DNA from: Umbilicaria muhlenbergii
Lineage: Eukaryota; Ascomycota; Lecanoromycetes; Umbilicariales; Umbilicariaceae
Direction: 5' to 3'
NCBI GenBank assembly: GCA_000611775.1
Contig: KK106983.1
Location: 434,378-498,377, forward strand
DNA length: 64,000 nucleotides
The notes under the pieces are model-generated. The model was not told the origin of the DNA. It did not search any database and saw nothing but the letters and a program-made list of their open reading frames with translations. Position 1 is the stretch's first letter. Each line of letters opens with the position of its first letter. The position numbers and the translations under genes were made by a program. Below, piece by piece: positions 8,175 through 57,698 of the stretch.

Positions 8175-8962
8175 TACGCTGCACCATGGGTTGGGTTTGG
8201 GTTGGGTTTTGACTATTGTGACCCAACCCAGACTGGGTTGGGTTTTTTTTGGGTTGGGTCACACTGGGTTGAGTTTTTTTGGGTTTGGGTTGGGTTTTTC
8301 ACTGGGTAACCCAGTTCAAGTTCACGTATATGACTCATCCAAACAGCTTTCAAAGCAGCTTCCAAAACGGCTTCCAAAACGGCTTCAACGACAGCCTCAA
8401 AAAACGGCTTCCAAAACGGCTTCAACGACAGCCTCAAAAAACGGCTTCCAAAACGGCTTCAACGACAGCCTCAAAAAACGGCTTCCAAAACGGCTTCAAC
8501 GACAGCCTCAAAAAACGGCTTCCAAAACGGCTTCAACGACAGCCTCAAAAAACGGCTTCCAAAACGGCTTCAACGACAGCCTCAAAAAACGGCTTCCAAA
8601 ACGGCTTCAACGACAGCCTCAAAAAACGGCTTCCAAAACGGCTTCAACGACAGCCTCAAAAAACGGCTTCCAAAACGGCTTCAACGACAGCCTCAAAACA
8701 AAATGGCTTTGATGACGGCCTCAAAAAATGACCTTGAAAATGACTTGAGAAGGCACCTTTTGAACTGACGTTTTTGACTACCATAAAGACTATCATAACT
8801 ATTTGTATGTACTGGGTTAACCCAGAATTTTCTGGGTTTGGGTTAAATGGGTTGGGTTTTTTCTGGGTTGGGTTTTGACATGTATAACCCACCCCAAAAC
8901 CCAACCCAAACCCAACCCAAACCCAAACCCACTGGGTAAAACCTAACCCATGATGCAGCGTA
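8175..8962. mobile_element. hAT-type MITE, copy M1 (788 bp)
   Basis: Termini TACGCTGCACCATGGGTTGG at the left and the inverted form ending GATGCAGCGTA at the right. It is flanked by a perfect 8-bp duplication GAACATGA (8167-8174 and 8963-8970), the hAT hallmark; D4 (about 39286) shows the uninterrupted target. Subterminal regions are built of TTGGGT/AACCCA units on both sides. It has no transposase, so it is non-autonomous. The translations spanning it are repeat artefacts. CpG sites are retained although the host sequence around it is depleted. Confidence 0.9.
8365..8697. repeat. 37-bp minisatellite, about 9 copies, inside MITE M1
   Basis: The ACAGCC landmark recurs at 8391, 8428, 8465 and so on to 8687, exactly every 37 bp, with essentially no divergence between units. 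Each unit is two CGGCTTCmAAmG-like 12-mers plus a 13-mer ending in AAAAAAC. Because 37 is not a multiple of 3, all three frames are open and give the same 37-residue peptide; this is not evidence for a protein. Confidence 0.9.
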
Positions 8963-17614: not shown

Positions 17615-17748
17615 TGTTGAGGGTCAATAAGCATGATCAGTGATGTGTGAAAAGTTTGCTTGTTTTAAAAAGGTTGAAGTCAGCTATTTATACTCATTAA
17701 TTAATGTCATGCTAATACTAGTGTTAACATCATGATAAGATTGTGACA
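17615..17748 (-). repeat. 3' LTR of element E
   Basis: TGTTGAGGG..TTGTGACA, 134 bp, preceded by CTTGA. Pairs with 32278-32411. Confidence 0.9.
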
Positions 17749-22400: not shown

Positions 22401-22546
22401 TGTTATGATTATATCATAATTTCATGATTTCACTACTTGCTGAAGTCAGCTACATTAGATGTAGCTTAAATTTAATTAGTATTTAACAGGTTTTTATGTC
22501 ACTAGAAAGAATTAATCCTTTTCTCACATATAAAACATGTACAACA
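22401..22546 (+). repeat. 5' LTR of element F
   Basis: 146 bp, TG..CA ends, TSD TTTAA at its left. Differs from the 3' LTR at 12 positions, all transitions. Confidence 0.95.
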
Positions 22547-29138: not shown

Positions 29139-29284
29139 TGTTATGATTATATCATAACTTCATGATTTCACTACTCACTGAAGTCAGTTACATTAGGCGT
29201 AGCTTAAATTTAACTAATATTTAGTAGACTTTTATGTCACTAGAAAGAATTAATCCTTTTCTCACATATAAAACATGTACAACA
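29139..29284 (+). repeat. 3' LTR of element F
   Basis: 146 bp, TSD TTTAA at its right. Context of the 12 differences from the 5' LTR: 6 CpT, 3 CpG, 2 CpC, 1 CpA. No clean polypurine tract precedes it (GCCAGCAGAT). Confidence 0.95.
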
Positions 29285-32277: not shown

Positions 32278-32411
32278 TGTTGAGAGTCAATAAGCATGAT
32301 CAGTGATGTGTGAAAAGTCTGCTTGTTTTAAAAAGGCTGAAATCAGCTATTTATACTCATTAATTAATGTCATGCTAATATTAATGCTAACATCATGATA
32401 AGATCATGACA
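32278..32411 (-). repeat. 5' LTR of element E
   Basis: TGTTGAGAG..ATCATGACA, 134 bp, followed by CTTGA. Nine differences from the partner LTR: 6 at CpT, 1 at CpC, 2 from one CpG; none at CpA. Confidence 0.9.
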
Positions 32412-34387: not shown

Positions 34388-36120
34388 TTACTCATTCATC
34401 ATCTCATACTTTTCTTCATTATTTAATGAAGCCTTTGACTTCATCTTCTCAACATGATATTGCTTAAAGAGTTCAATATACTCTTGATGACAGTGAGATT
34501 AATAAGCATTGAGGACACAGAGAGTATGAGTATAACTTTTTAATAAAACTGCAAGAACTTGAATGAACTCTTTAAAATTATTAAATTAATATTAATCACC
34601 TCATTATGAATGTTATGAGACTCATGTTGAGGAGCAGCTGTAAGAAACATGAAGATTATTAATAATAATTAAAAAAAAGACAACAGCATAAGGATTAATT
34701 AATTAATCATCAAATATTATAAACAATTAACATATCAATAATATAATAATATGACAGTACAACAAAATGTCATATGTATGATAAATAATACAACATAATC
34801 ATATTAAATAAAATAAAATAAAAGAAAATTAAAAAAGATAAACTTACAATGTGCTGTCATCTCTCTTGTTATCATAAGCATGTGCATACAAAACAACAAC
34901 ATCAAATCTCTCAAAGGTTAAAACAGTGATGATCAAAGACTCTGTCATGCATTAATCATAAAGATTGTGAAGTGATATACAACAAGTGCAGGTTGAATTA
35001 ATCTGTGATATAAAGTACTGATCAACCTCAGCTCTTCTGCAAGAGTCACAGTGAGCAGCACTTAACAACATATGATTGAAATTCTTTTAAATTACACACT
35101 CATGATGATGAGTCTGCTGCACATGAGTTAACAGTGAGGTATCATCATGACATCACACAAAGCAGAAACCCTCATCAAAGATATCATTTAAAAATAAACA
35201 CTTAACTTTCTTTACGCTGCACCATGGGTTGGGTTTTACCCAGTGGGTTTGGGTTTGGGTTGGGTTTGGGTTGGGTTTTGGGGTGGGTTATACGTGTCAA
35301 AACCCAACCCAGAAAAAACCCAACCCATTTAACCCAAACCCAGAAAATTCTGGGTTAACCCAGTACATACAAATAGTTATGGTAGTCTTTATGGTAGTCA
35401 AGAAAGTCAGTTCAAAAGGCGCCTTCTTAAGCCATTTTCAAGGCCATTTTTTGAGGCCGTCGTCGAAGCCATTTTGAAAGCTGTTTTGGAAGTCACTTTG
35501 GAAGCTGTTCTTCGAGGCCGTCGATGAAGCCATTTTGGAAGCGTTTTGGAAGTCGCTTTGGAAGCTATTTTTCGAGGCCGTTTTGGAAGCCGTTTTGAAA
35601 GCCGTTGTTCGAGGCCGTTTTCCAAGGCCGTTTTCCAAGGCCGTTTTTCAAGGCCCTCGTCAAAATTGTTATGGTAGTCTTTATGGTAGTCAAGAAAGTC
35701 AGTTCAAAAGGCGCCTTCTCAAGTCATTTTCAGTTTTGGAAGCCGTTTTGGAAGCTGCTTTGAAAGCTGTTTGGATGAGTCATATACGTGAACTTGAACT
35801 GGGTTACCCAGTGAAAAACCCAACCCAAACCCAAAAAAACCCAACCCAGTGTGACCCAACCCAAAAAAAACCCAACCCAGTCTGGGTTGGGTAACAATAG
35901 TCAAAACCCAACCCAAACCCAACTCATGGTGCAGCGTAACTTTCTTCAAGCATTGAATAGATCATTTCATTACTTTGTTTTCTCATTTCTTTTTGAAGAT
36001 GTCAATCATTATAAATTCATTTGTCAACAACAATACCTCAGAGCCCTCCTCATCACATTGAGCATGAAGGTTGACAGGCTTACCTGATGAAGACAAGTTT
36101 TCACTGTTGTTCATAATCAT
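34388..36120 (-). pseudogene. Antisense cargo gene of D2 (interrupted by MITE M2)
   Basis: Homologue of 12982-13959. ATG at 36120 gives MIMNNSENLSSSGKPVNL, then QCDEEGSEV. The frame is cut by the MITE at 35213-35938, then resumes with FNDIFDEGF-like sequence and MLLSAAHCDSCRRAEVDQ.., reaching DDSTL just before GTAAGT at about 34850. Downstream exon about 34640-34388 reads LCVLNAY, QEYIELFKQYHVEKMKSKAS and EEKYEMMNE-stop. Cysteines, the donor site and amino-acid identity are conserved with D1 although the DNA is heavily mutated. Confidence 0.55.
35213..35938. mobile_element. hAT-type MITE, copy M2 (726 bp), inverted relative to M1
   Basis: Ends TACGCTGCACCATGGGTTGG and GGTGCAGCGTA; perfect 8-bp TSD ACTTTCTT (35205-35212, 35939-35946). 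It is the reverse complement of M1 in arrangement. The interior repeat is diverged here: GAGGCCGT(C/T).. and GGAAGC.GTTTTGAAAGC.G modules (35450-35670) instead of a perfect array. Confidence 0.9.
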
Positions 36121-37129: not shown

Positions 37130-37405
37130 TGTCAGGGCCATCATATATAATAATATGATAATATGACAGTATGACAGTATGACAGTATGTCACTATAACT
37201 CACTTATATGATGACTCAGTGAGTAGCGCCTTGGCATCAAGTGAAAACTCTTCACAAGGAGGTTCAGAAACCTGTTTTCTCAGTGATCAATTTTCTCACT
37301 GAATAGAACACATATCATCACTGCATTGACTCTATCATGATTATATTGCTTACAACACTTCATTCAACACTTATATGATCTCACGTCATAGATCAGCCTT
37401 TTACA
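37130..37405 (+). repeat. 5' LTR of D4
   Basis: TGTCAGGGCCATC.. to CCTTTTACA, 276 bp, preceded by CAGGC. Its last 78 bp compare with the almost unmutated 50574-50651: 15 transitions, all in this copy. Confidence 0.9.
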
Positions 37406-42990: not shown

Positions 42991-43182
42991 ACAATATTAT
43001 TATCACTGCAATTTCATTACTATTTAATCATTCATCATCTCATACTCTTCTTCACTATCTGTGCAGTTTCACACTTTCACCCTACATGATCAATCATTTA
43101 TCAGGCTATCATGATGATGTCTATGATGATGAGTTCAGAGTCAATTAGCACCAGGGATGACATCATGAGAAGGGGAATACTG

Positions 43183-43404
43183 TGTCAGAGCCATCATATA
43201 TAGTAGTATGACAGTATGACAGTATGACAGTATGACAGTATGACAGTATGACAGTATGACAGTACATCACTATAACTCATTTATATGATGACTCAATGAG
43301 TAGCGTCTTGACATCAAGTGAAAACTCTTCACAAGGAGGTTCAGAAACCTGCTTCCTCAGTGATTAATTTTCTCACTGAATAAAACACATATTATCACTG
43401 CATT
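43183..43404 (+). repeat. 3' LTR of D4, first part (cut by element G)
   Basis: TGTCAGAGCCATC.. with seven tandem TATGACAG-type units (43206-43262), interrupted at GCATT, the target of G. Confidence 0.9.
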
Positions 43405-43611
43405 TGTTATGACATGATCAATTGACACTGATGAATATTGAACTACCTGATGTTAAATTAAATTGAGACTAGTGTGTCTTGCCACTCTGACATTTATGTT
43501 ATGACTGCACTCACAAGACTGCTTTCTTCTTTGTACTTTTTTAGTTTCAAATAATTCACCTCTTGCAATAATTTTAGACCTGCTTATGAAGTGAAATAAT
43601 TAACTGTAACA
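43405..43611 (+). repeat. 5' LTR of element G
   Basis: 207 bp, TGTTATGACATG..CTGTAACA. 21 transitions plus one transversion against the 3' LTR; in every transition this copy has the T or A. Confidence 0.95.
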
Positions 43612-44479
43612 TTAGAAAAGTACCTACACTCTTTTCAACCTCTGAAGGTAACAGAATATCAGCTGAAACAAACATATGTGTTAATGAGAAAATTCTTCCT
43701 CAACATCATCAAACATCTCAACTCACAATTTATCAAGTGATCAGGAGGTTCTTAGAACATTTTAAATTCATTAATTAATTATCAACAATCAATTCTCAAG
43801 TCCTGTGAGAAGTAAGCAATGAATGATCAAGAAGTACTCTGTCATGATGACAGATAATTGTGAGAAGTAATCATAATAAACAGAAAGTCCTGTAATATGT
43901 AGATGCTTTTAAAGATCTATTTGTAAGCACAGACAACTGCAGTAGAGGCAGTTGAAAAAGCAAGGTTCTGAATCAAATAATCTCAGCACTAAAAGTAAAT
44001 GTCTGAAGCATTAAAGAAATCATGATTAAATCACATCAGGAGGGAGGGATTTCTTTTTAATTTAAAAAATTATCCTTGACTGAAGAACAATCAGATGATC
44101 ATGAAAGATCAGAAACAATAAACATCATGAAGATGAACTCTTGAGATGAGATGACCTTTGAAAATTTATAATAATGAGCAGCACATGATCTGAAGAACAC
44201 CTGTCATTTAATGTTGAAGACACTAAATCAGAGAGATTCATACAAGACACAGATACAGAATCTAGAAGAACAGAATAATTAAAAAGACTCTCAGATAAAA
44301 AAGTTAACAACTGAGAAATAAGAATTGAAACAGAATGTGTTGAAGTTAATCTGATGATTTAACAATTCTGAAGCAGAGCGGTCAAGAGAAGGCACACTTA
44401 AATTGAACATGAATGATGTAATGAAGAAGCATTCAGTGAAGTTTTCAGATTCATCAATTCTGAATGATGATCTTAAGCT

Positions 44480-45230
44480 CATGTTTCAGGTATGAAATGA
44501 TCAGATGAAGAGCAAGTTATTAATCAATGATGATTGATTTGATCAGTTAGATCAAGATGAAGCTGAACATGTCAGAGTGATTTACATCAAGATGTGAGTT
44601 GACAGCAAGGCTGCTGAACACCTTTATTCATGATTGAAGGCTCAGTCAGGAAGAGATATTTATGTTGAGAAGATTATTCAGTACCTGAAGAACATCTTCA
44701 AGGATTTAAATCATCACTTGAAGGCATGAAAGCAGCTGAAGAAGTTCAAGATGTCTTATCTTAAGAACTTTAACATGTTTCAGTCAGAGTTTCTATGATT
44801 GATGAACTCAGTGAAGATGTCAATAAATCAGTGAAAAGAGGAAATTCATGACAAGCTATATGACTCACTTTGAGTTCAAATGGAAATTTATGTCACTGAT
44901 AAGAACATGTCATTTGATGTTTATTATAAGAAAGCTCAACAGTTCATGAGAGATCTTGTTAAAGCAGATGAAAGAATCAAGGAATGAAAAAATCAACAGA
45001 AGCTGCAGAGGAAGCAGTCAACTTTTAAATTTAAAAAGAAGATAATCACTGCAATCATCACTATTACATGAGAAGTAATCAAATTAATATTAACTGATGT
45101 AATTTATTACATCTGCAATAAGAAAGAACACCTGGTGAGGGATTATCCTGATAAGTTAAAGAAAGCTGAGGCAAAGGCTGTAGACTCTGATTATTCAGAT
45201 TCAGAAAATGAGCTACTCTAGATGAAGTCT
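44480..45230 (+). pseudogene. gag of element G with CCHC knuckle
   Basis: Capsid-like stretch about 44560-45010: FDQLDQDEAEHVRVIYIKM, IQYLKNIFKDLNHHL, SYLKNFNMFQSEF, EEIHDKLYDSL. A zinc knuckle at 45105-45146 reads Y-Y-I-C-N-K-K-E-H-L-V-R-D-Y, a C-x2-C-x4-H-x4-C box whose first and last Cys codons became TAT (G to A), so it is inactivated. Confidence 0.75.
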
Positions 45231-45289
45231 TCACCCTAGAGTCAACAGAAGGAGCAAAGATAAGCAAAATGAAAATGTTAAACATTTTA

Positions 45290-48200
45290 AAAAAGTCATC
45301 ATTAACCTGAGATTATCAACTTGCAGTCAACAACTTAATCATAAGAGTAGCAGCTCTGCTAAATATCAGTGCTGTTGAAAAGGCTTTCATTCACAAGAAG
45401 CACTTTAAATTTGTGAAAAAGCACCTGCAGTTATACATCAGGACAGCACAGAGGTCAATTCTTTTAACAAGATACAATAATTGAAATGCTGAGATGATCT
45501 TCAGAGCATTTACAGCAAACTTAATGATTGACAGAAGATGAATCTCTACTCACTTTTTATTTTATAACATCAGCAGGCATGATGTTCTGATTGAGAGAAA
45601 ATGATTCAAGAAGATTAAAATATTGATTGATTACTTCAATTGAAAGCTGATTTAGCCTGAGGAGGCTTAATATCAGGCAAGCAAAAACTTGATGATATCA
45701 AGGTGAGAATTACAGTTATCAGAAGTCAAATCAGAACATCAGACAGATGCTGAACAACATGATAATCTGCATGAGGCAGCAACACTGACTCAGATCTTAA
45801 GAAGAGCAGAAAGAGATGAAATCATAATGATGTTTAACAAAACTGACCCTGAGGATACTGAACATTCAACAAGATTAAATGAGTGAAAGAAAAGATTTAT
45901 TAAATCACTTAAAAAGTCAGTCCTGCAGCTACAGGCACAATCAAAGACATGAAGAGCTCAACAGCAAGTCAACATCAATGAGATGAAAAAACAACTGAAT
46001 GAAAAGAAAAGTTCAATAAATCACATGAGTAGTTTAATGAATGAAGGTCAAAGTTCATTGAATGTAAAAAAATTAAAGGATCATAAACCTCCTTTTTATC
46101 AAGGAGTGAATATTATACTTCTGAAAGCAGAAAACTTCCTATGCAATGTCAGAAGAAAAGAGATGATTATTAATATCATTAATATTCATGAGGTCAATCA
46201 CTTAATAAAAAATAAAAAGAACCTCTGTCTGCTGCTGCAGAATAAAGCAGAGCTGAATTAAAGAGTAAAGGAAAAATTACCTCATCAGTATTAAGAGTTT
46301 GTGAAGGTTTTCAGCAAGACAGCATCAAATCAGCTACCTCTACACAAGGAAAAAGTGAATCATGATATCATCTTGAAAGATGAGAACAACCTGACCTCAA
46401 GCTTCTTGTACAGTATGTCATTGAAGCAGTTAAAGTTAATCAAGGCTTATCTTGAAGATCATTTAAAAAAGAGTTTCATAATCCTTAATGATGCTTCTTA
46501 CATGTCATCAGTTCTCTTTGCAAAGAAACCTGAAGAGGGGTGATGTTTTTGCATTAACTACTGAAAGCTCAATGCAATCATTAAGAAGGATAAGTACCTC
46601 TTGCCTTTAATTGAAGAGACTCTAGCATGACTGGTTAAAGCAAAGGTTTTTATCAAGCTGAATGTTAAGCAGGTGTTTTACTGAATACAGATGAAGAAGT
46701 TTGTTGAGGATTTAATCACCTTTTGAATGAGGTATGAACTTTACAAATACAAGGTCTTACCTTTCAGCCTTCATCAGCAATTTAGCAAGTTAGCTCTGAG
46801 TTAATTTTTAGCACTTTGAGCGCTCTGAGCTTCTGATCTCATGTTTCAGATAACAGCCGCTCTTAGCAACAACTGAGCACTTTGAGCTCAACCTTAAATC
46901 TTGAGCAGAACATCAAAATTTTGTGATAAAAAAATAATTATTAAAACAATTGTTTAAACAAGTACACACACAGTGTTATAATAACAGTAAAACTTATAAT
47001 AAGTAAACTTTTGCTAAAATTCACTTTTCTGCAATAAAAAATCATGATTTGTTGAGTCTGAAAGCACTGTATAAGTGTTGAGTTCTGAATATTTAAAGAA
47101 CTTCAAGATTTTCACCACTTAAAAATTTACACACTTTAATAACTTTTGCAACTCAACAGATATGAAGAAACTTTCAATGCATAAATTATAAAAAACAGTA
47201 TTATCTATTAATGTTAAATTAAAAGTTTCTTCATAACTGCTGTTATTGTTAAATTATATTTAATTCAAGTTTGCAATAGTGAAAAATCTTTCAAAAAAAA
47301 GTCACATACTTTGAATAACTATTGCGCTTTTATACTTATAATATAACTTTCAGTCTATAAGTTGTAGAGAAGAAGCTATTAAACAGTTCTATAACTTAAA
47401 GTTTTTTTATAACTGTTGTTGTTAAAAAGTTACATTGATTTCAAACTTCCAGTGACGAAAATCACAACATTAATAAACAGACTTTTAATGACTTTTTGAA
47501 TAACTCAACAACAACAACACATAAAAAAAAACTTTGTATAAGAAAACTCTTAAACAGCTTATTCTCTACAACTTATAAACTAAAAGTTATATCATAAGTA
47601 TAAAAGCGCAACAGTTATTTAAAGTATGTGACTTTTTTTGAAAGATTTTTCACTATTGAAAACTTGAATTAAAGATAACTTAACAACAACAGCAGTTATA
47701 AAGAAACTCTTATTTTTGAGTGAGCTGTCAAGTTGTAAATGTTTGCAATGAACCCGCCTCCTTTCAGAGGTATATTAATGATGTTTTATTCAATCACCTG
47801 AACAATTTCTGCACAACTTATGTGAATGATATCTTGATCTACTCAGAGGATCTGTTGAAACATGACGCTCAAGTTAAAAAAGTGCTTCAATACCTTAAGG
47901 AAGTAAGCCTACAAGTAAACATAAAGAAGAATGAGTTTAACATTCAATTTATCAAGTTTCTGAGCTTCATCATCAGCACTGAAGATATTGCAATGAACTC
48001 AAACAAAGTTTCTGTCATTAAGGAAATTCAATCTTTCCTGAGATTCTGCAACTTTTATTGTTGTTCATTAAAAAAATGAGGTTGAGTTGTACACCTGTTG
48101 ACAAAGCTGACTGCAAAAGAGGCCTGACACCCCTTAAAAGAGCTGAAAATTCAAGTTTTTGAGAAGACAAAAGAGCTGATATTATCAGATGCTGTCTGAG

Positions 48201-50340
48201 CTCACTACTCACCTTATTTGAAAACTCAAATGAAGACAGACGTCAGCAGTGAAGTTGTTGCAAAAGTGCTCACTCAACAACAGAAAGATGATAAGTGAAA
48301 ATTTATAATTTACTTCTCAAAGACAATGTCACCTGAGGAAATGTGATATGAGATTCATGACAGAGAGATGTTAACAGTTGTTAAAGTCCTTCAAGAATGA
48401 TGTAACATGTTATTAAATCTACAAGCAGCTTCTTTTGTCATAATTATAAATCATCATGCTCTAAAGTACTTTATCATCAAGTGATTACTTAATTCACGGC
48501 AAGTTAGATGAGCTGATATTATGACAGATTACAACTTCAAGATTATTTACTGCTCAAGAACAGTCAACATTGTTGTTGATGCTCTGACAAGAAAACACAG
48601 TGAGTTGATCACTCAGAAAGAAAAGAACATCACTGCATGAACACAGCTGTTTCTGAATCCTAATTGTGTAATAATCACAATAAGTGAGGGTTCAATGAAC
48701 ATCAAAAGTAATTCACTGAATGAGACTGAACAGATGAAAAATTCTTATCAGCTGATGAATCAGATTCTGCAAGTCAATCACTCTCATGAATCACTGAATC
48801 AGTATCATCAGATGACAAGAAAGAAGAAATGAAGCTGAAAGCTTCAAGATAATCTTCTTACATAATTTAAGAAGCTCATGATGCTGAATGTTGACACTTT
48901 GCAGACTCATTTGATTAATGAAGCTCATTCAACATCAGTGACAGCACACTCAGGCAAGATTAAAATGACAAAGTTATTATTAATTCAATATTACTGATCA
49001 GGTCTGTCAAATGACTGTTCAGTTTTTATTTCAAACTGTTGAACATATCATTGAATGCATGTACTCTGAGACAAGACCTCAGGCTTACTTCACTCTTTAT
49101 CAATTAAAGATAAGTGCTGACAGCATGTCTCATTCAACTTTAAATTCTTCTCATGAGACAAGAAAGGCTTTGACAACATATTTATCATTGTCAATCACTT
49201 TAAAAAAAGGGCCTTCTCACTGTCATGTCAGAAGACAGTTACAACAGCTCAAGTTATGCAATTGTATTATGAGTACATCTGAAGAATCTATGAAACACCT
49301 GAGACAGCAACATCAGATTGAGGGCTTCAGTTCATCTCAACATTCATGAATGAACTCTGCAAGCTTGTGAGGGTAAAGCAAAAGCTTTCAACAGCATATC
49401 ACTCACAGACAGATGAAAGCACTGAGGTACTGAATCAATACATTAATCAACAGCTTCACCTCTTCATGAATCATTTTCAAGACAACTGATCAGACCTTTT
49501 ACTGATAATGAATTTCACTCAAGCAGTTCTCACTCATGAGTTCACAGGCATGTCATCTTATGAGTTAAAGCTGAGACAGACCCCTCATCTACACTTTCAT
49601 TGAAAAGAGTGAATGCAATCCTTGAACATCATAAGGGAGCAACTGACAAGAGAAGAAGCTCAGACCTTTATTATTAAAGCTCATGATGCAGTTAAATGAG
49701 CAAAGGAAAACCTGAAACAGGCTTAAAATAAAATGACAGATCAAGCAAATAAGCACTGAAGGAAACTGAACTTCTTCATTGAAGACTGAGTCTATATTAC
49801 TTGAAAGAGTTGAATCACTGAAAGACTTAGCCTAAAGTTGAATCATCAAGCAGCAGGCTCTTACTGAATCCTCAGCATGAAAAATCACTCTTATGTTTTG
49901 AAGCTACTTAAACACATGAAGATGAACAACATCTTTCATGCTGATCATTTAAGGAAAGCAGTGAATGACTTAATGTTAAATTAAATTCAGGACTTGAAGC
50001 TGCTGACTGAAGTTAATGATCAGCCTGAGTACACAGTGAAAAAAATTTTAACAAGCTGAATTCACAACAACATCCTGCAATATCAAGTGACTTGAGAGGG
50101 ATATGATTCAGACTCAGAATGATATGATGCTGTTGACTTTATAAAGTCACCTCAAAAGGTAAAAGATTATCATGATGCTTATCTGAACAGGGCGGAGCCA
50201 CTGAGGAGGCTACAAGTTTGATTAAATGCTTATAAGTCAGGTGAAGAGCTGAACCTGACAGATGAAGACAACATGACAGTCAATAAAGAATTCAAGAGGC
50301 AGTCAAGATGAAAAGTTTAAGATGAAAACTGAGAACAGTC
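45290..50340 (+). pseudogene. pol of element G: protease, RT, RNase H, integrase, chromodomain
   Basis: Protease/linker 45300-46280. RT from 46290: FVKVFSKTASNQLPLHK, VLFAKKPEEG, broken W, CINY-stop-KLNAI, LPLIEETLA, FIKLNVKQVF, then cut in the VLPF..NxPASFQ box by the palindromic element and resumed at 47745 with NEPASFQRYINDV; active box TYVNDILIYS (YVDD, Asp to Asn). RNase H 48100-48600: TKELILSDAV, MKTDVSSEVVAKVLTQQ, FIIYFSKTMSPEE, YEIHDREMLTVVK. Integrase 48880-49700 with AHSGKIKMTKLL, IVNHFKK, STAYHSQTDESTE. Chromodomain 50027-50170: EYTVKKIL, LQYQVT-stop-EGYDSD, YDAVDF. Frames shift between segments. Confidence 0.8.
46772..47741. mobile_element. Palindromic (foldback/MITE-like) non-coding element, copy 2
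   Basis: 970 bp, nearly identical to copy 1 (1278-2397) over its left 600 bp. Inverted-repeat arms here are longer: about 47225-47360 against 47573-47705. The central loop (47361-47572) is the reverse complement of the loop in copy 1. It is inserted in the RT of G; the host seems to have gained only 2 bp (TT). Confidence 0.75.
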
Positions 50341-50350
50341 CTCCTGTCTG

Positions 50351-50568
50351 AAGGGGGGTGATGTTATGACATGATCAACTGACACTGACGGATATTGAAC
50401 TACCTGATGTTAAACTAGATTGAGACTAGTGTGTCTTGGCACCCTGACATTTATGTTGTGACTGCACCCACAAGACTGCTTCCTTCTTTGTACTTTTCTA
50501 GTTTCAAATAGCTCACCTCTTGCAACGGTTCTAGGCCTGCTTATGAAGTGAAATAGCTAGCCGTAACA
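50351..50568 (+). repeat. Polypurine tract (50351-50361) and 3' LTR (50362-50568) of element G
   Basis: AAGGGGGGTGA precedes TGTTATGACATG. The LTR ends CCGTAACA and is followed by GCATT. CpG and CCA/TGG sites survive here, unlike in the 5' LTR. Confidence 0.95.
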
Positions 50569-50573
50569 GCATT

Positions 50574-50651
50574 GGCCCTATCATGACTATATTGCCTACG
50601 ACACCCCGTTCAACACCTATACGACCCCACGTCGTAGACCAGCCTCTTACA
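50574..50651 (+). repeat. 3' LTR of D4, last part
   Basis: 78 bp after the G duplication GCATT, ending CTCTTACA, followed by CAGGC. Retains CpG and CCA sites lost from every other D LTR in the window. Confidence 0.9.
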
Positions 50652-51868: not shown

Positions 51869-52605
51869 CATCCAATGCACGAGACATCTTTCCCGACCGA
51901 CCAATTTCTGGAACGCGCTGACTACCAGTGCTACCTTAGAAGGAGCTCGCTAGGCAAAATGCTTGGCCAGCACGCCGTGCACGCTAGGAAGCCACCGTCG
52001 AGCTTCATTTTAGGCGAAAACCAACCCGGGAAATTACTGCACAAGAAACAGAACTCTTGATACGGGAGCACAAAGGATATGTTACTGTTGCATGTAATAC
52101 GACTAGCGTAAATCCTTACCCCTTTTTCATAAACCCGCCGCACAGTACGGAGTTTCACCGAGGAGTTGAAAGCAACCTGGGACAGGCTAAGAATGAACAA
52201 GGCAGACGATCTGTTCTCCCTTGCCGCTTGGACCACTGCACCAAGAAAAAGGAGTCGCCAGCTTGGAAACTTATCGAGGCTAAAAGAAGGCAACATCTCA
52301 ATTGGAGCCCACAAGCAAGACGAGGTGAAACGGACTGCTAAAGGCGCACCATTAGTCTTCTGTGTTCACTTGCTGATGCCTGCCATGGAATGGTTGCACA
52401 CATTTGCGGCTGAGAATGCCCCCTCTACATGGCAAGGCAGTCTCGGCGGCGTTATTTCTTCGTAACTACTATATGACTTTCAAAGTGTCAGTCTCTTAGC
52501 ATACGTCTCTCGCTGCGTTATCTGTTCTTCACTTTACCTGTCTACGAGAATCGTTTATTAAATGACTCAGTCTGAAGGCCAATACCGTCTCTGTCCAGCC
52601 TCACC
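51869..52605. other. GC-balanced intergenic DNA upstream of the gene
   Basis: Ordinary composition with CpG kept. Both strands have unrelated short open frames (at most 127 codons, minus strand 52314-51931), none with motifs or splice support. The last 100 bp are pyrimidine-rich (CTCTCGCTGCG, TTCTTCACTTTACCTG), typical of a fungal promoter/5' UTR. No gene is supported. Confidence 0.5.
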
Positions 52606-55600
52606 ATGAATCCCTACCTCGAGCTTGCTCAATTTGAGGATCGCCTTACCCAGAGCGAGGAGCCCCTAATCTCCCTCATCACGCCTGTTGGATCACCACG
52701 AGCAGTCCGCTCCCTAAGAATAATGTCAAGCGGTAAAGGCCACTAACATTTTTCTGTAGAGTCTTGAACGAGGCAGAGATGCACGGCCCCGAAATGACCA
52801 ACTTCACCCCGATCATACAAGTCAACTCGACCATGCAAGGCCACGATCGAGATCGCAGCGAAGCTCGAAGAGATCAAAATACGAGATCGCCCTAGAGCAG
52901 GCCAGAGAAGAGAGCCTGCTGGACGTTGATGATCCTGGGTCACAATTGTAAGCTGACAATCCCCATATCCAGTGGTTCTCTTTTCACTAAGGGGTAAAGA
53001 CATCCGCTTCCAAGGGCTATAAGTGAAACGGCCGACATATTGATTCAGATAGAAGCTACCGACATACCATTCCGGCAGCCACGCGCATTAGACGAGCTCT
53101 ACGGTACAGAAGGCACCTCAGGACAAGCTGCAAAGTTTTGTGTGGCATGCGAAGGTTTTGGGGAGAGTCATTCATTCTGTAATATTTGCGCCATCACATT
53201 ATGCAACGCATGCTGGGATACTGTGATCCCACACCGGCTAGGCACCCGAGGTCCTGACGATGTGCCGCATGAGAAAACCAGTTACATCATTGCCGAGAAG
53301 ATTAAGGCGGTCCTCGAGCCGAGGATCACCGACGAGGAACGGCGAGAACTACATAGGGAAGACGAGAATACAGCTTGGTTTGGTGTGGCAAGAAATGAAA
53401 CGGAGGACCTTATTTTTCAAGATTGTGGGACGTACGCCTCTCTTATGGCAACTTGCTCATCGAGGAGAAGAGATATTCAATATCCTGGATTAGTATCCTT
53501 TGTGGGCCAAACGGGTAGGTTCGCGTGTTCTAATCCGATGCACAGCTGATGAGCTTGCAGGAGCAGGGAAGAGTACACTAATCAAGATGCTCATCGAACT
53601 TAGAAGCCAAGCAAGGCATGAAGCAGTACCTGTTTCAGGGTCCATTGATGACAGTGTTCCAACGTCCGGGGACGTTCATTTGTATCTGGATCCTCAGAGT
53701 TGCTTAACCGATTATCCAATCCTGTATGCCGATTGCGAGGGTTTGGAAGGCGGAGAGAAAGAACCGATGGCTCTCCAGGCAAAACGGGCAAGCAGCTCAA
53801 GCTCTCGATTTGGGCAGCCAAGCAAGCGGACTGGGTCGTTTCAAAGACGACTCCGGAAAAAGCACCATAGCTCCCAGAGAGAGATCACCTGGGCAACAAC
53901 AGCTGAGAAGAGAACCCGCCAGTATGCGGTCACAAACCTGTATCCTCGCTTACTCTATACATTTTCTGATGTAGTTGTCTTTGTGCTTAAGAATCCGAGG
54001 TAGAGGAGACCTCCAGCTAAGCTTAGAAGAAGGTTGGGCGCTAATATTCATGCTAGGGTAATTGAAAACGTAATTGAGCAACTCATCATGTGGGCTTCGG
54101 CGGCGCTCGAAAAGTCTACCAACCAGCCTGTACTTCCCCATCTAATCATAGTCCTCAACGCAACGGAAAATGCAATTAAGGCCGATCAATGGGATGTGAA
54201 TACTGCTACGGCGAACCTTCTGCAATCGATCACCGAAGCACTCGCCAGCAAGCCAAGCTTTAGGCACTACGTGCAATACTGGAAAGAACGAAAAAGGGTG
54301 ATACACAACGCTCATGATCTTCTCTGCTCTTACTACTCCAGCGTTCGAGTGGTACGTGTTCCCACGAGAGGTCGTCCTCAACTCATCAGCGAGCAAATGG
54401 CTAAGCTCTACGATGAGCTCTCGGAGGACTGCAAGTTGTCACGAGATGATAAGCGGAAGAACAGAATGCTCCTTGACGCCGATGAGCTACAGCCTTATCT
54501 ACAATATGCCTTCGACCACTTTTCTACTAATCTGGAGATGCCTTTCGACTTCGTCAAAGCAAGCTTTTTGAACAATGATATACCACGAGATTTTGGCGGC
54601 AATATACTGAAAGTGGCGATCAAAATAATGAATATTTGGGAGAACAAGCTAGATGCAGCCGGAATCTTCAGAGAGCTGAGCCCTTTAGTGGCCTCCTGCA
54701 TTATGTTGGATTCTGCGCGGCATAAGACTAAGGGTGAGGCGGACTCTGTGTGTGTAGGGTTTTACGGTGACTGAAAGATGTACAGGGACCGCCGAGAGCA
54801 TATTCCGAGAGAATTACATAAATCACTGTGACGACGCGCTCGAAGACTTCTGTGCTTGGCACTGGCCTTGCGAATTCAGTAGTACTGCCGGCCGTTGCGT
54901 CAATGTTAGAAGTGGACACAGCCCCAAAGGACATCAACTCAGAAATGGTAAAACCTTCGGGTCTGGACCGTACATGTCGAATTTCTCAGCAGCCAATTTC
55001 AGCCACTATTGGAAGAGCAAAATTCACCATGATCTTAACCTGCTTCTTAAAAGGCTTAGGGACGCGAGCAGTGACAGGGAATCCGAAGAGCTAACAGCGT
55101 CGAACATTCACAAGACCGCAATCTTGAAACCTTTCTACAAGCACATCGGCTCTTCAGACAAATACGTGAGCCATTCGACCTGTCTATCCTGTCTCATAGC
55201 ACCCCCTGAACATGCGCTGCCATGCAGTCATGTGCTTTGTACACCATGTCTGCAAGCTTTTGGTTCGCCTAGAGGAAAGTTTCTATTCGAGATAAAGGGT
55301 TGTCCATTGTGGCATGAGAACCCACAAGTGTGGAACATGCCATGGCGAATTGAGTTCAAGCCAGCATCAGCGGGTGTTCGTATTTTGACTCTCGATGGGT
55401 GAGTTTCGAGGCTCCAACCATCGATAACGTCTGCTGATACGGCACCATTTCCAGGGGAGGCATTCGGGGTATCATTGAGCTAGAGACGCTTAGGCATCTA
55501 GAGAAAACCCTCGGCGGTAGAATTCCAATCCAAGATTTCTTTGACCTGATAGTAGGAACAAGGTAGGCATCTGATTCTCTTGTTGAGGAGATCCTCATCA

Positions 55601-57406
55601 CGTCATTGACCTCAAGCTGCAGTACTGGTGGTATCATCGCCCTTGATTTAGGTGTCAATGCATGGCGCGTTGATCAGTGCATCACTGAGTTTATGTCATT
55701 GTGTGAACAAGCTTTTATGCATCGCAAAGGGTATAGTATTTGGGGCATTGGACATCTGGTTCAGGCACATCATGGTAGCATCTACGAGACGCAACCGCTG
55801 CAACAAGCCCTTGAGAGTACTTTTTCCGATGGCACTTTGTTTGGCGGCCGACGGTACGATGACAGGCCGCGGACCAGAGTTGCTGTAACGGCCACATCTG
55901 CGGCTGGACTGCTACCGGTGCTTTTCTCCAACTACAACCGACTTAATCCAAATGAAGAGAAACGTCTGTCTACAGCAGCAAAGTCTTAGTCTTGAGTAGT
56001 CACTGACTTGCAGCAGGGAGCTATGTTTTCCAGCGGCCTGAAGAACCCGAGCATGAGCTGAAGGTCTGGGAAGCGTAAGGAACTTCATCATGGAAGAGCC
56101 AAGATAGAAGAATGCTGACTCTCCTCTGCAGCGCTCGAGCCACTTCCGCGGCACCGACGTATTATAAACCGTTCCCACATGCGCCATCAGGACAAGTTTA
56201 CATTGATGGCGGCATCTGGCACAACAACCCGGTAGTCATTGCTGATTCTGAGCGTAAATTGATTTGGCCAGACGTGGCAGGCTTGCCGCCTGACATTCTG
56301 CTCTCTGTCGGCTCCGGGTGGTGTAGCACACTTCGCTTGCCTAAGCCTTTATCTAGGCCAACTCGCAGGACGGGCATTGGATCGAATTTCAAGGCTCTAT
56401 ATCGGATTGCGGTGGATCATATTGAGAGTAGTCTAGATTCGGAAAGAGCATGGCGGGATTACCTTGCTCTAACTTCCCCGCAGCCAGGTCCGCATTGCCC
56501 ATACAGGAGATTAAACGTTAATCTCGAGGAGCCTCCACCAAAGTTAGACGATATCGAAAGCCTAAAGGAGTTGCAAGACCTAGCTAAGCGGCATTGGGCG
56601 CGGGATGAGAGTATCGCTTCGACGGCAAGATGTCTCATTGCTTCCTGCTTTTACTTTGAGAAGTCAAAACTTGAGCATCTGGAGGACGGATCAGTTTCCT
56701 ACACAGGTTTGGCTCGTGCTCAGCCTGTATGACTCACGTTAACGAAGATACAGGGTCTCTCCAATGCCGCTTTACTCCAGGTTCGCAAAATCTTCGAGAG
56801 CTGGGAGCGTACCTACAGGACCACCCGGTCAACGGACAGAATCCCTATTTCTTAATCCAGCAGACAGACAAACCAGACTTTCCAAGGGTGGTTCCTTTGG
56901 GCCAGGACGTTGTAAACAACATGAGACGTTGCGGGCAATTCCAGATGCCGCCCATTTCAATGAACCTACAACCTCTTGACAAGACAGATATTCTTTTGTG
57001 CCTAGACCACAAGGAAGCGACACAGCGGATTAGCGGGTTTCCGAGGTCTCTACAGCGGGAGGAATTGCCGAGAGGTGGGAAGCTTCCATCACCAGGGCAA
57101 TGTAACGGTCAAATAGCTGACAACCAAGCAGTCATCCGCAGACTCGAATGCAATTCGCACCGAGCACGCACCGAGTCACAGCTTTATCGCCGCGGGCAAT
57201 GGCCTGGACCTCAGTCGCTAGACGCCCCCCAGGAAGACGACGATACCATTTCTCACTACTCCAGCTCCGACTACGTGGTGGGCGATTTGACTCCAGCCGC
57301 GTTGGGCGAGATTAGGGAGCAGTTTCAAACGTCTACCGCAGAACTTTCTGGGACTGAAACGGCTATATATGAGATGCCTGACAACGAGATCTCTGAGTTA
57401 CCTTGA
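52606..57406 (+). CDS. Large GTPase / RING-like / patatin phospholipase fusion protein (11 exons)
   Basis: My model has ATG 52606 (CACCATGA context) and introns 52733-52778, 52948-52999, 53515-53560, 54000-54056, 54734-54785, 55399-55454, 55563-55622, 55964-56013, 56075-56131, 56707-56753, with the stop at 57404-57406: 4278 nt, 1425 residues. The last eight introns are fixed by motif continuity; the first two are chosen by phase and length and are less sure. Domains: B-box/ZZ-like Cys cluster (C146,C149,C159,C162,C167,C170,H177); P-loop GQTGAGKST (268-276), switch-like DCEG (328-331), LNATEN (450-455) in the place of NKxD; RING-like C775,C778,C789,H791,C794,C797,C815; patatin DGGGIRG oxyanion loop (846-852), nucleophile GTSTGG (S883), dyad DGG (D1042). 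Patatins hydrolyse acyl lipids; a GTPase-linked form could be a regulated immune or incompatibility effector, which is inference only. Codons are intact and not hypermutated. Confidence 0.8.
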
Positions 57407-57469: not shown

Positions 57470-57698
57470 TGTTCAGGTAAGAGAATCAGACATAAGTCAT
57501 GCATTAATAGATATGCTAGATAGATAGATAGATAAAAGGTATCTAAGCATATGATAGATGTCGTACGACACTTTTGTGAGTAAGTGATGCAAACTCTGCA
57601 TGCTATGTGGCCTCGCCAGCCACCACTAGTGACAGCTTATTAAGCTGTCCTAGCCCTACACTTGAGCCCTAGATTGAGCCTTAGACGCATATCTAACA
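57470..57698 (-). repeat. Probable Ty1/copia LTR with adjacent polypurine tract
   Basis: On the minus strand a tract GCAGGGGGAG (57708-57699) is followed by TGTTAGATATGCG.., the usual copia PPT/LTR junction. The other end is placed at TGTTCAGG (57470), which is uncertain. Mostly unmutated. It contains a (TAGA)4-5 microsatellite at 57517-57534. The element body should lie to the right, on the minus strand. Confidence 0.45.

Follow-up and report, generated by a model that had tools for sequence, protein, structure and literature searches.

The 64,000-nucleotide stretch of the Umbilicaria muhlenbergii genome analysed here (assembly GCA_000611775.1, contig KK106983.1, positions 434,378 to 498,377 of the forward strand; hereafter the window) contains three retroelements bounded by long terminal repeats (LTRs), denoted E, F and G, several parts of a repeat denoted D4, a 192-bp repeat and some gene-like DNA (Table 1). 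Its AT-rich 2-kb stretches have a G + C content (GC) of ~0.29-0.37. Element G is a true insertion that interrupts D4, its 207-bp LTRs being bordered on either side by GCATT. The subject of this report is the C-to-T and G-to-A mutation that has altered these and related repeats, in particular its dependence on the base that follows the mutated cytosine and its relation to repeat-induced point mutation (RIP).

A sequence-only reading of the window had counted 57 transitions and one transversion between the two copies of four repeats (the LTRs of G, F and E, and D4), and re-alignment by program reproduced these figures exactly, with zero gaps (counts per pair in Table 1). When context was counted only for cytosines with an identical 3′ neighbour in both copies, the changed cytosines comprised 2 of 86 at CpA, 26 of 77 at CpT, 14 of 20 at CpC and 7 of 9 at CpG, with additional changes at 6 of 13 sites with a purine-variable neighbour (CpR) and 2 of 11 with a pyrimidine-variable one (CpY); the earlier tally of CpT 26, CpC 16, CpG 13 and CpA 2 is recovered if CpR is assigned to CpG and CpY to CpC. 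The G LTR, for which changes at 1 of ~35 CpA and 10 of ~30 CpT sites had been claimed, gave 1/35 and 10/32. CpA differs from CpT with p = 4e-8 and from the three other contexts pooled with p = 2e-12 (Fisher test). Thus, the assertion that mutation avoids CpA stands insofar as CpA is the lowest context; the wording is too strong and "least preferred" fits, 2/86 being an extreme value rather than a typical rate.

The same order is found in repeats elsewhere in the genome (34,788,950 bases in seven contigs, labelled C1 to C7; L-numbers denote fetched loci), part of which were covered by our alignments. In families F, E and G, 19 LTR pairs spread over several contigs had changes at 49 of 555 CpA sites (8.8%), 139 of 529 CpT (26%), 37 of 92 CpC (40%) and all 15 CpG; a 20th candidate pair, D4, had no BLAST match in the script and is counted among the window pairs. 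These 19 pairs differ by 292 transitions and 7 transversions, with the strands nearly equally affected (149 C/T, 143 A/G), and in 17 of them CpA is mutated less than CpT, the CpA/CpT ratio being 0.34 (0.23-0.46 in a bootstrap over pairs). The LTRs of G could be polarised against a GC-rich real copy (L020): among 41 other fetched copies, C-to-T change was found at 87/1429 CpA, 392/1430 CpT, 190/525 CpC and 77/164 CpG sites, and T-to-C at just 48 of 4782, a rarity that makes the direction of change clear. CpA was below CpT in 40 of the 41 copies and tied in one. Because these copies share ancestry, sites were counted as well as copies; those changed in at least five copies make up 7 of 35 CpA and 18 of 35 CpT. 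A fourth family, represented by L067, yielded 36/228 at CpA, 80/211 at CpT, 26/41 at CpC and 5/5 at CpG for variable sites among seven copies, with CpA lowest in all 21 pairs. This family (1.5-kb query) is a high-copy one, with 39 other places scored out of 185 candidates and with identities of 84-91% and few transversions among the seven copies compared.

Ten polarised chunks, retained out of 49 by filters that favour strongly polarised ones (GC difference of at least 0.05, transversions of at most 2%, few T-to-C), gave CpA 24/289, CpT 58/271, CpC 43/122 and CpG 27/55. The 192-bp repeat of the window differs from its copy in L055 by 25 transitions and no transversions, with C-to-T at 1 of 25 CpA, 12 of 35 CpT, 6 of 12 CpC and 4 of 8 CpG, and the lightly mutated pair L103/L104 had changed at 0/28, 6/31, 8/12 and 4/4 of these contexts, respectively. 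In 14 long pairs, both copies and both strands were mutated alike and same-strand tracts were absent, while in several of them adjacent changes alternated slightly above expectation. Simulation of the pair method revealed no bias against CpA at a uniform rate and recovered a Neurospora-like order when one was put in. Per site, CpA was not the most often mutated context in our alignments. A sound statement of the order is CpG >= CpC > CpT > CpA, and it is in lightly mutated copies that CpA falls furthest behind.

Mutation was confined to duplicated DNA in a sample of twenty 1.5-kb loci chosen at round-number positions along C1 to C5 (C6 and C7 contributed none). Six of the twenty hold DNA below 44% GC, and all six are repeats, four by genome search (L067 with 40 scored matches, self included; L066 with 40 matches; L082 with 16; L069 with one other full-length copy and three short matches) and two, L075 and L079, by being wholly covered by repeats already fetched. 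The skew is present in all six: within their low-GC parts, the base after C is A in 0.44-0.54 of cases and G in 0.02-0.06. The 14 gene-like loci, compared with the fetched loci rather than with the whole genome, are flat (C then A/C/G/T 0.28/0.25/0.22/0.25), so that the check for the same spectrum in ordinary DNA, proposed with the sequence-only reading, found no skew. As to the length and identity of the repeats affected, the 1.5-kb repeat L069, with its one other full-length copy, is mutated; a duplicated stretch of 2.7 kb with 68% identity shows no such mutation.

The consequences for the sequence are much as had been described. The 48 kb of AT-rich window DNA, counted on both strands, holds 61 CCA and 3 CGA against 4290 TCA; C is followed by G in 1-3% of cases, and TpA is not enriched. 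With the longest open frame of F (Table 1) as reference, four relatives together have 18 in-frame stops, 17 of them TGA and one TAA. CAA or CAG has become TAA or TAG in one of 48 aligned codons; nine CAA codons in this alignment face TGA, as would be expected where CGA resolves either way. It had also been predicted that standard RIP indices would under-call such DNA: at thresholds quoted in the literature, none of 96 AT-rich 500-bp segments of the window passes both indices and 6 pass TpA/ApT alone. The marks of classical CpA-type RIP, namely CpA as the main target, enriched TpA and depleted CpA plus TpG, were not found.

The sequence-only reading had suggested a search for RID- and DIM-2-type genes, and candidates for both are present, as is a DNMT5-like gene; a PF00145 profile search of the genome pointed to four places. 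The RID-type gene (L014) carries the motifs PPCQ, EQT and IGNAVPP and is interrupted by a single GT-AG intron of 51 bp, beyond which the reading frame proceeds as it does in relatives. Its protein is 64% identical to the homologue of Lasallia pustulata, which belongs to Umbilicariaceae; PPCQ and EQT are common to nine aligned homologues, with ENT in one, and we take EQT to mark the RID class. A 1323-amino-acid frame, matched best in the PDB by 9bap (E 1e-178), probably belongs to the DIM-2 class, judging by this match and its architecture. The DNMT5-like gene encodes methyltransferase, RING-like (below the Pfam cut-off) and SNF2 parts and matches PDB entry 7r76, presumably Cryptococcus DNMT5, over the methyltransferase and SNF2 parts. 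A degenerate partial DNMT5-like copy (L016, C1:6,525,500-6,530,000) is 79% identical over 0.9 kb, with transitions and transversions at 121:55. Among deaminases, a PF00383 search returned 8 matches; a search with APOBEC_N had none here but none in any control genome either, and carries no weight.

Taken together, we consider it rather probable that the repeats are hypermutated by a RIP-like defence with a nearly reversed preference, CpG >= CpC > CpT > CpA. Several features of RIP in the broad sense are present: changes that are nearly all transitions (57:1 in the window, 292:7 in the 19 LTR pairs), restriction to duplicated DNA in the sampled loci, mutation of both strands and both copies, and a RID/Masc1-type gene. 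In such a process, homology would be the means by which duplicated DNA is recognised, and both of its strands would have their cytosines converted to thymine. The agent may be the RID-type methyltransferase, perhaps together with the DIM-2-type enzyme, its neighbour specificity presumably having changed with respect to Neurospora, and the timing would fall in the sexual cycle.

Comparison with known systems, for which the cited papers are represented by excerpts, places this spectrum apart. RID-dependent RIP of Neurospora crassa is alike in changing C:G to T:A on both strands of repeats and in the presence of RID- and DIM-2-like genes, and unlike in that here CpA comes last, CpC second and TpA is not enriched; the published order for N. 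crassa is CpA>CpT>CpG>CpC (PMC5496416). Trichoderma reesei, where RIP was shown in crosses, is likewise not restricted to CpA and mutates CpG strongly, but its order is CpA~CpG, then CpT>CpC (PMC5496416). Magnaporthe oryzae, Botrytis cinerea and Sclerotinia sclerotiorum have CpT as a major target and a RID/Masc1-type gene, yet CpA is their first or second signature, and Amselem et al. report, in the excerpts at hand, a CpA signature in every RID-bearing species (PMC4352252). In the CpG-biased Tuber melanosporum (which also has CpA), Microbotryum (TpCpG) and Coccidioides/Uncinocarpus, CpG is similarly depleted with CpA/TpG left or raised, whereas here CpC and CpT are mutated too (PMC4352252, PMC2621366, PMC4014442, PMC7862722), and Microbotryum, as described there, lacks the RID-type gene that is present here. 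The CpG-only pattern of basidiomycetes, with a Masc2-type gene and no RID, does not describe a genome with a RID-type gene and with changes at 37 of 92 CpC and 139 of 529 CpT. For Monacrosporium haptotylum, a reduced preference for CpA has been reported, though with elevated TpA (PMC3828140). Another lichen-forming ascomycete, Cladonia rangiformis, also has RID and DIM-2 homologues and strongly mutated transposable elements (PMC12542154).

Several observations weigh against a CpA-sparing RIP-like defence, or at least limit it. CpA is not below CpT in 2 of the 19 LTR pairs, and across 46 wider, unpolarised pairs, a set that takes in diverged subfamilies as well as one pair of 100% identity, the contrast is compressed (CpA 0.161, CpT 0.221, CpC 0.315, CpG 0.443), with CpA equalling or exceeding CpT in some single pairs. 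CpA (33/260) and CpT (25/200) are equally affected in L069/L106, a duplicate with two copies, with CpC (25/65) and CpG (12/22) above both, and among the low-GC sample loci L066 (450-1050) is the least typical, CpT being as frequent as CpA and TpA/ApT 0.96. Polarisation of F against its relatives left CpA lowest overall (0.227, against CpT 0.277, CpC 0.382 and CpG 0.408) and proved of limited use, with ~7% transversions and ordinary divergence mixed in; in the relative L060, CpA exceeds CpT (38/80 and 22/75), and neither is CpA the lowest context in L056, a GC-richer copy. Furthermore, L030:3945-7815 and L031:257-4127, located on C5 at ~2.63 Mb and on C3 at ~4-8 kb, respectively, share 3,871 bp of already mutated DNA with 100% identity, 12 CpG and 118 CpC contexts (both strands counted) among them; this duplicate has remained unmutated since copying, and therefore either the copying is recent or the process is inactive there. 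RID, like any other enzyme, is at most a candidate agent of the mutations. Finally, the GC of transposable elements in C. rangiformis peaks near 16% (PMC12542154), whereas AT-rich stretches of the window have ~0.29-0.37, and hence lichens as a group may not share the pattern. CpA is the least mutated context, not an immune one.

The serious rival to a RIP-like process is mutation driven by DIM-2 or DNMT5: these enzymes would methylate heterochromatic repeats, 5-methylcytosine would then deaminate during vegetative growth, and the spectrum would mirror the methylation context rather than RID. Both genes are present, Dim2-dependent mitotic C-to-T mutation has been published for Zymoseptoria, Neurospora DIM-2 is said to favour CT (PMC8016269), and a role in maintaining CG methylation has been suggested for DNMT5 (PMC7862722). 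However, CA is the target of the process in Zymoseptoria, whose Dim2 methylates CG first, CA next and CC after that, with hardly any methylation of CT (PMC8016269). CpC as the second favourite matches none of the enzyme contexts found in the literature excerpts. An excess of transitions over transversions of ~40-fold (292:7) is very high for decay, the same-age LTRs of the single G insertion are unequally mutated (22 against 5 C-to-T, with L020 as reference), and mutation extends to a repeat that has just one further full-length copy. For these three reasons RIP is preferred over slow decay of methylcytosine, which we regard as unlikely overall.

A combination of two processes appears improbable. 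Here a CpG process, of DNMT5 or Masc2-like type, would act alongside a separate CpC/CpT process, and CpA would be changed mainly by background; the near exhaustion of CpG in AT-rich DNA and the fact that CpA reaches the CpT rate in some transversion-rich pairs would fit, whereas changes at CpG, CpC and CpT co-occur even in the lightly mutated L103/L104 and in the window pairs. It is very doubtful that the spectrum represents a general mutation bias of the genome, visible in repeats as unconstrained DNA. The DNMT5-like gene and its pseudogene tilt weakly in the same way (C-to-T at CpA 14/128, CpC 20/89, CpG 20/99, CpT 14/108), but their transitions and transversions stand at the ratio given above and CpA about equals CpT, the gene-like loci are flat, and in the 2.7-kb duplicate of 68% identity CpC is the lowest context (CpA 48/327, CpC 33/246, CpG 49/224, CpT 73/312). 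Negligible, lastly, is the chance of APOBEC-like deamination of single-stranded cDNA during reverse transcription, or of an assembly artefact: the LTR pairs do come from retroelements, but both strands and both copies are mutated (149:143) with no same-strand tracts, which disfavours an attack on one strand, and mixing in assembly would not depend on the 3′ neighbour.

Other features of the window are recorded for completeness. Tandemly arrayed units of 12-13 bases, with a higher period of 37 bases, occupy positions 8290-8772 and 35213-35938, partly within a 202-amino-acid open frame; the stretches flanking the array have 95-99% complementary copies at a distance of 26-27 kb. Positions 1278-2127 and 46772-47716 contain direct and inverted AT-rich copies (GC ~0.25), whose direct alignment, unlike that of other repeats, has more transversions (41) than transitions (29). 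The region 54004-57406 is gene-like, with adjoining frames and a weak match to a patatin-type phospholipase (Pfam E 2.5e-5, under the curated cut-off), and a diverged duplicate of 53196-55908 lies on the same contig, ~90 kb off.

Table 1 Positions of the repeats, the reference open frame and the control DNA in the window
Feature	Position	Strand	Remarks
Retroelement G, 5′ LTR	43405..43611	+	GC 0.31, heavily mutated; vs copy L020: 22 C-to-T, 0 T-to-C; vs 3′ LTR: 21 transitions, 1 transversion
Retroelement G, 3′ LTR	50362..50568	+	GC 0.42, lightly mutated; vs L020: 5 C-to-T, 4 T-to-C
Left target-site duplication of G (GCATT, 5 bp)	43400..43404	+	
Right target-site duplication of G (GCATT, 5 bp)	50569..50573	+	
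Retroelement F, 5′ LTR	22401..22546	+	12 transitions vs 3′ LTR
Retroelement F, 3′ LTR	29139..29284	+	
Longest open frame of F, 253 amino acids	24720..25481	+	Lightly mutated DNA; reference for stop counts in four relatives
Retroelement E, 5′ LTR	17615..17748	+	9 transitions vs 3′ LTR
Retroelement E, 3′ LTR	32278..32411	+	
D4 repeat, end part of heavily mutated copy	37328..37405	+	15 transitions vs 50574-50651
D4 repeat, right part, severed by G insertion	50574..50651	+	Lightly mutated
D4 repeat, left part, severed by G insertion	43161..43404	+	
192-bp repeat	57504..57695	+	Lightly mutated; compared with copy in L055
Gene-like control DNA	52000..57400	.	C then A/C/G/T = 0.28/0.23/0.21/0.29

The description of this mutation as opposite to classical RIP holds in that CpA comes last; RIP that is not led by CpA has already been published, with CpT, CpG and CpA~CpG biases. 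A broad survey by Clutterbuck (2011) may contain cases of the same kind. As far as the excerpts of the literature go, what is new is that CpA is last and that CpC, last in both published orders, is second. Neither a CpA-last RIP nor a repeat spectrum of Umbilicaria was found among the matches listed in the open-licence literature, mostly titles and abstract openings, and a term search of PMC4595289 and PMC10512270 returned nothing bearing on CpA-last RIP in the text available.

The more specific proposition, which we hold to be evenly balanced, is that a RID-based RIP with inverted neighbour specificity operates in this genome, producing TGA from CGA or TGG rather than TAA or TAG from CAA or CAG, reaching a GC floor of ~30% because CpA is spared, and escaping index-based detectors. 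To our knowledge, how RID-type enzymes choose their cytosines is an unsolved question. That CpA is last and CpC second here indicates that the neighbour preference of such a defence can be reversed, and offers a handle on this choice. The damage itself is altered, with TGA stops dominating in the four copies of the one F frame that were compared. Common surveys for RIP use the TpA and CpA indices, and the two combined flag nothing in DNA that is plainly hypermutated here; if the proposition is true, fungi with an enzyme of this kind may harbour more RIP than has been reported.

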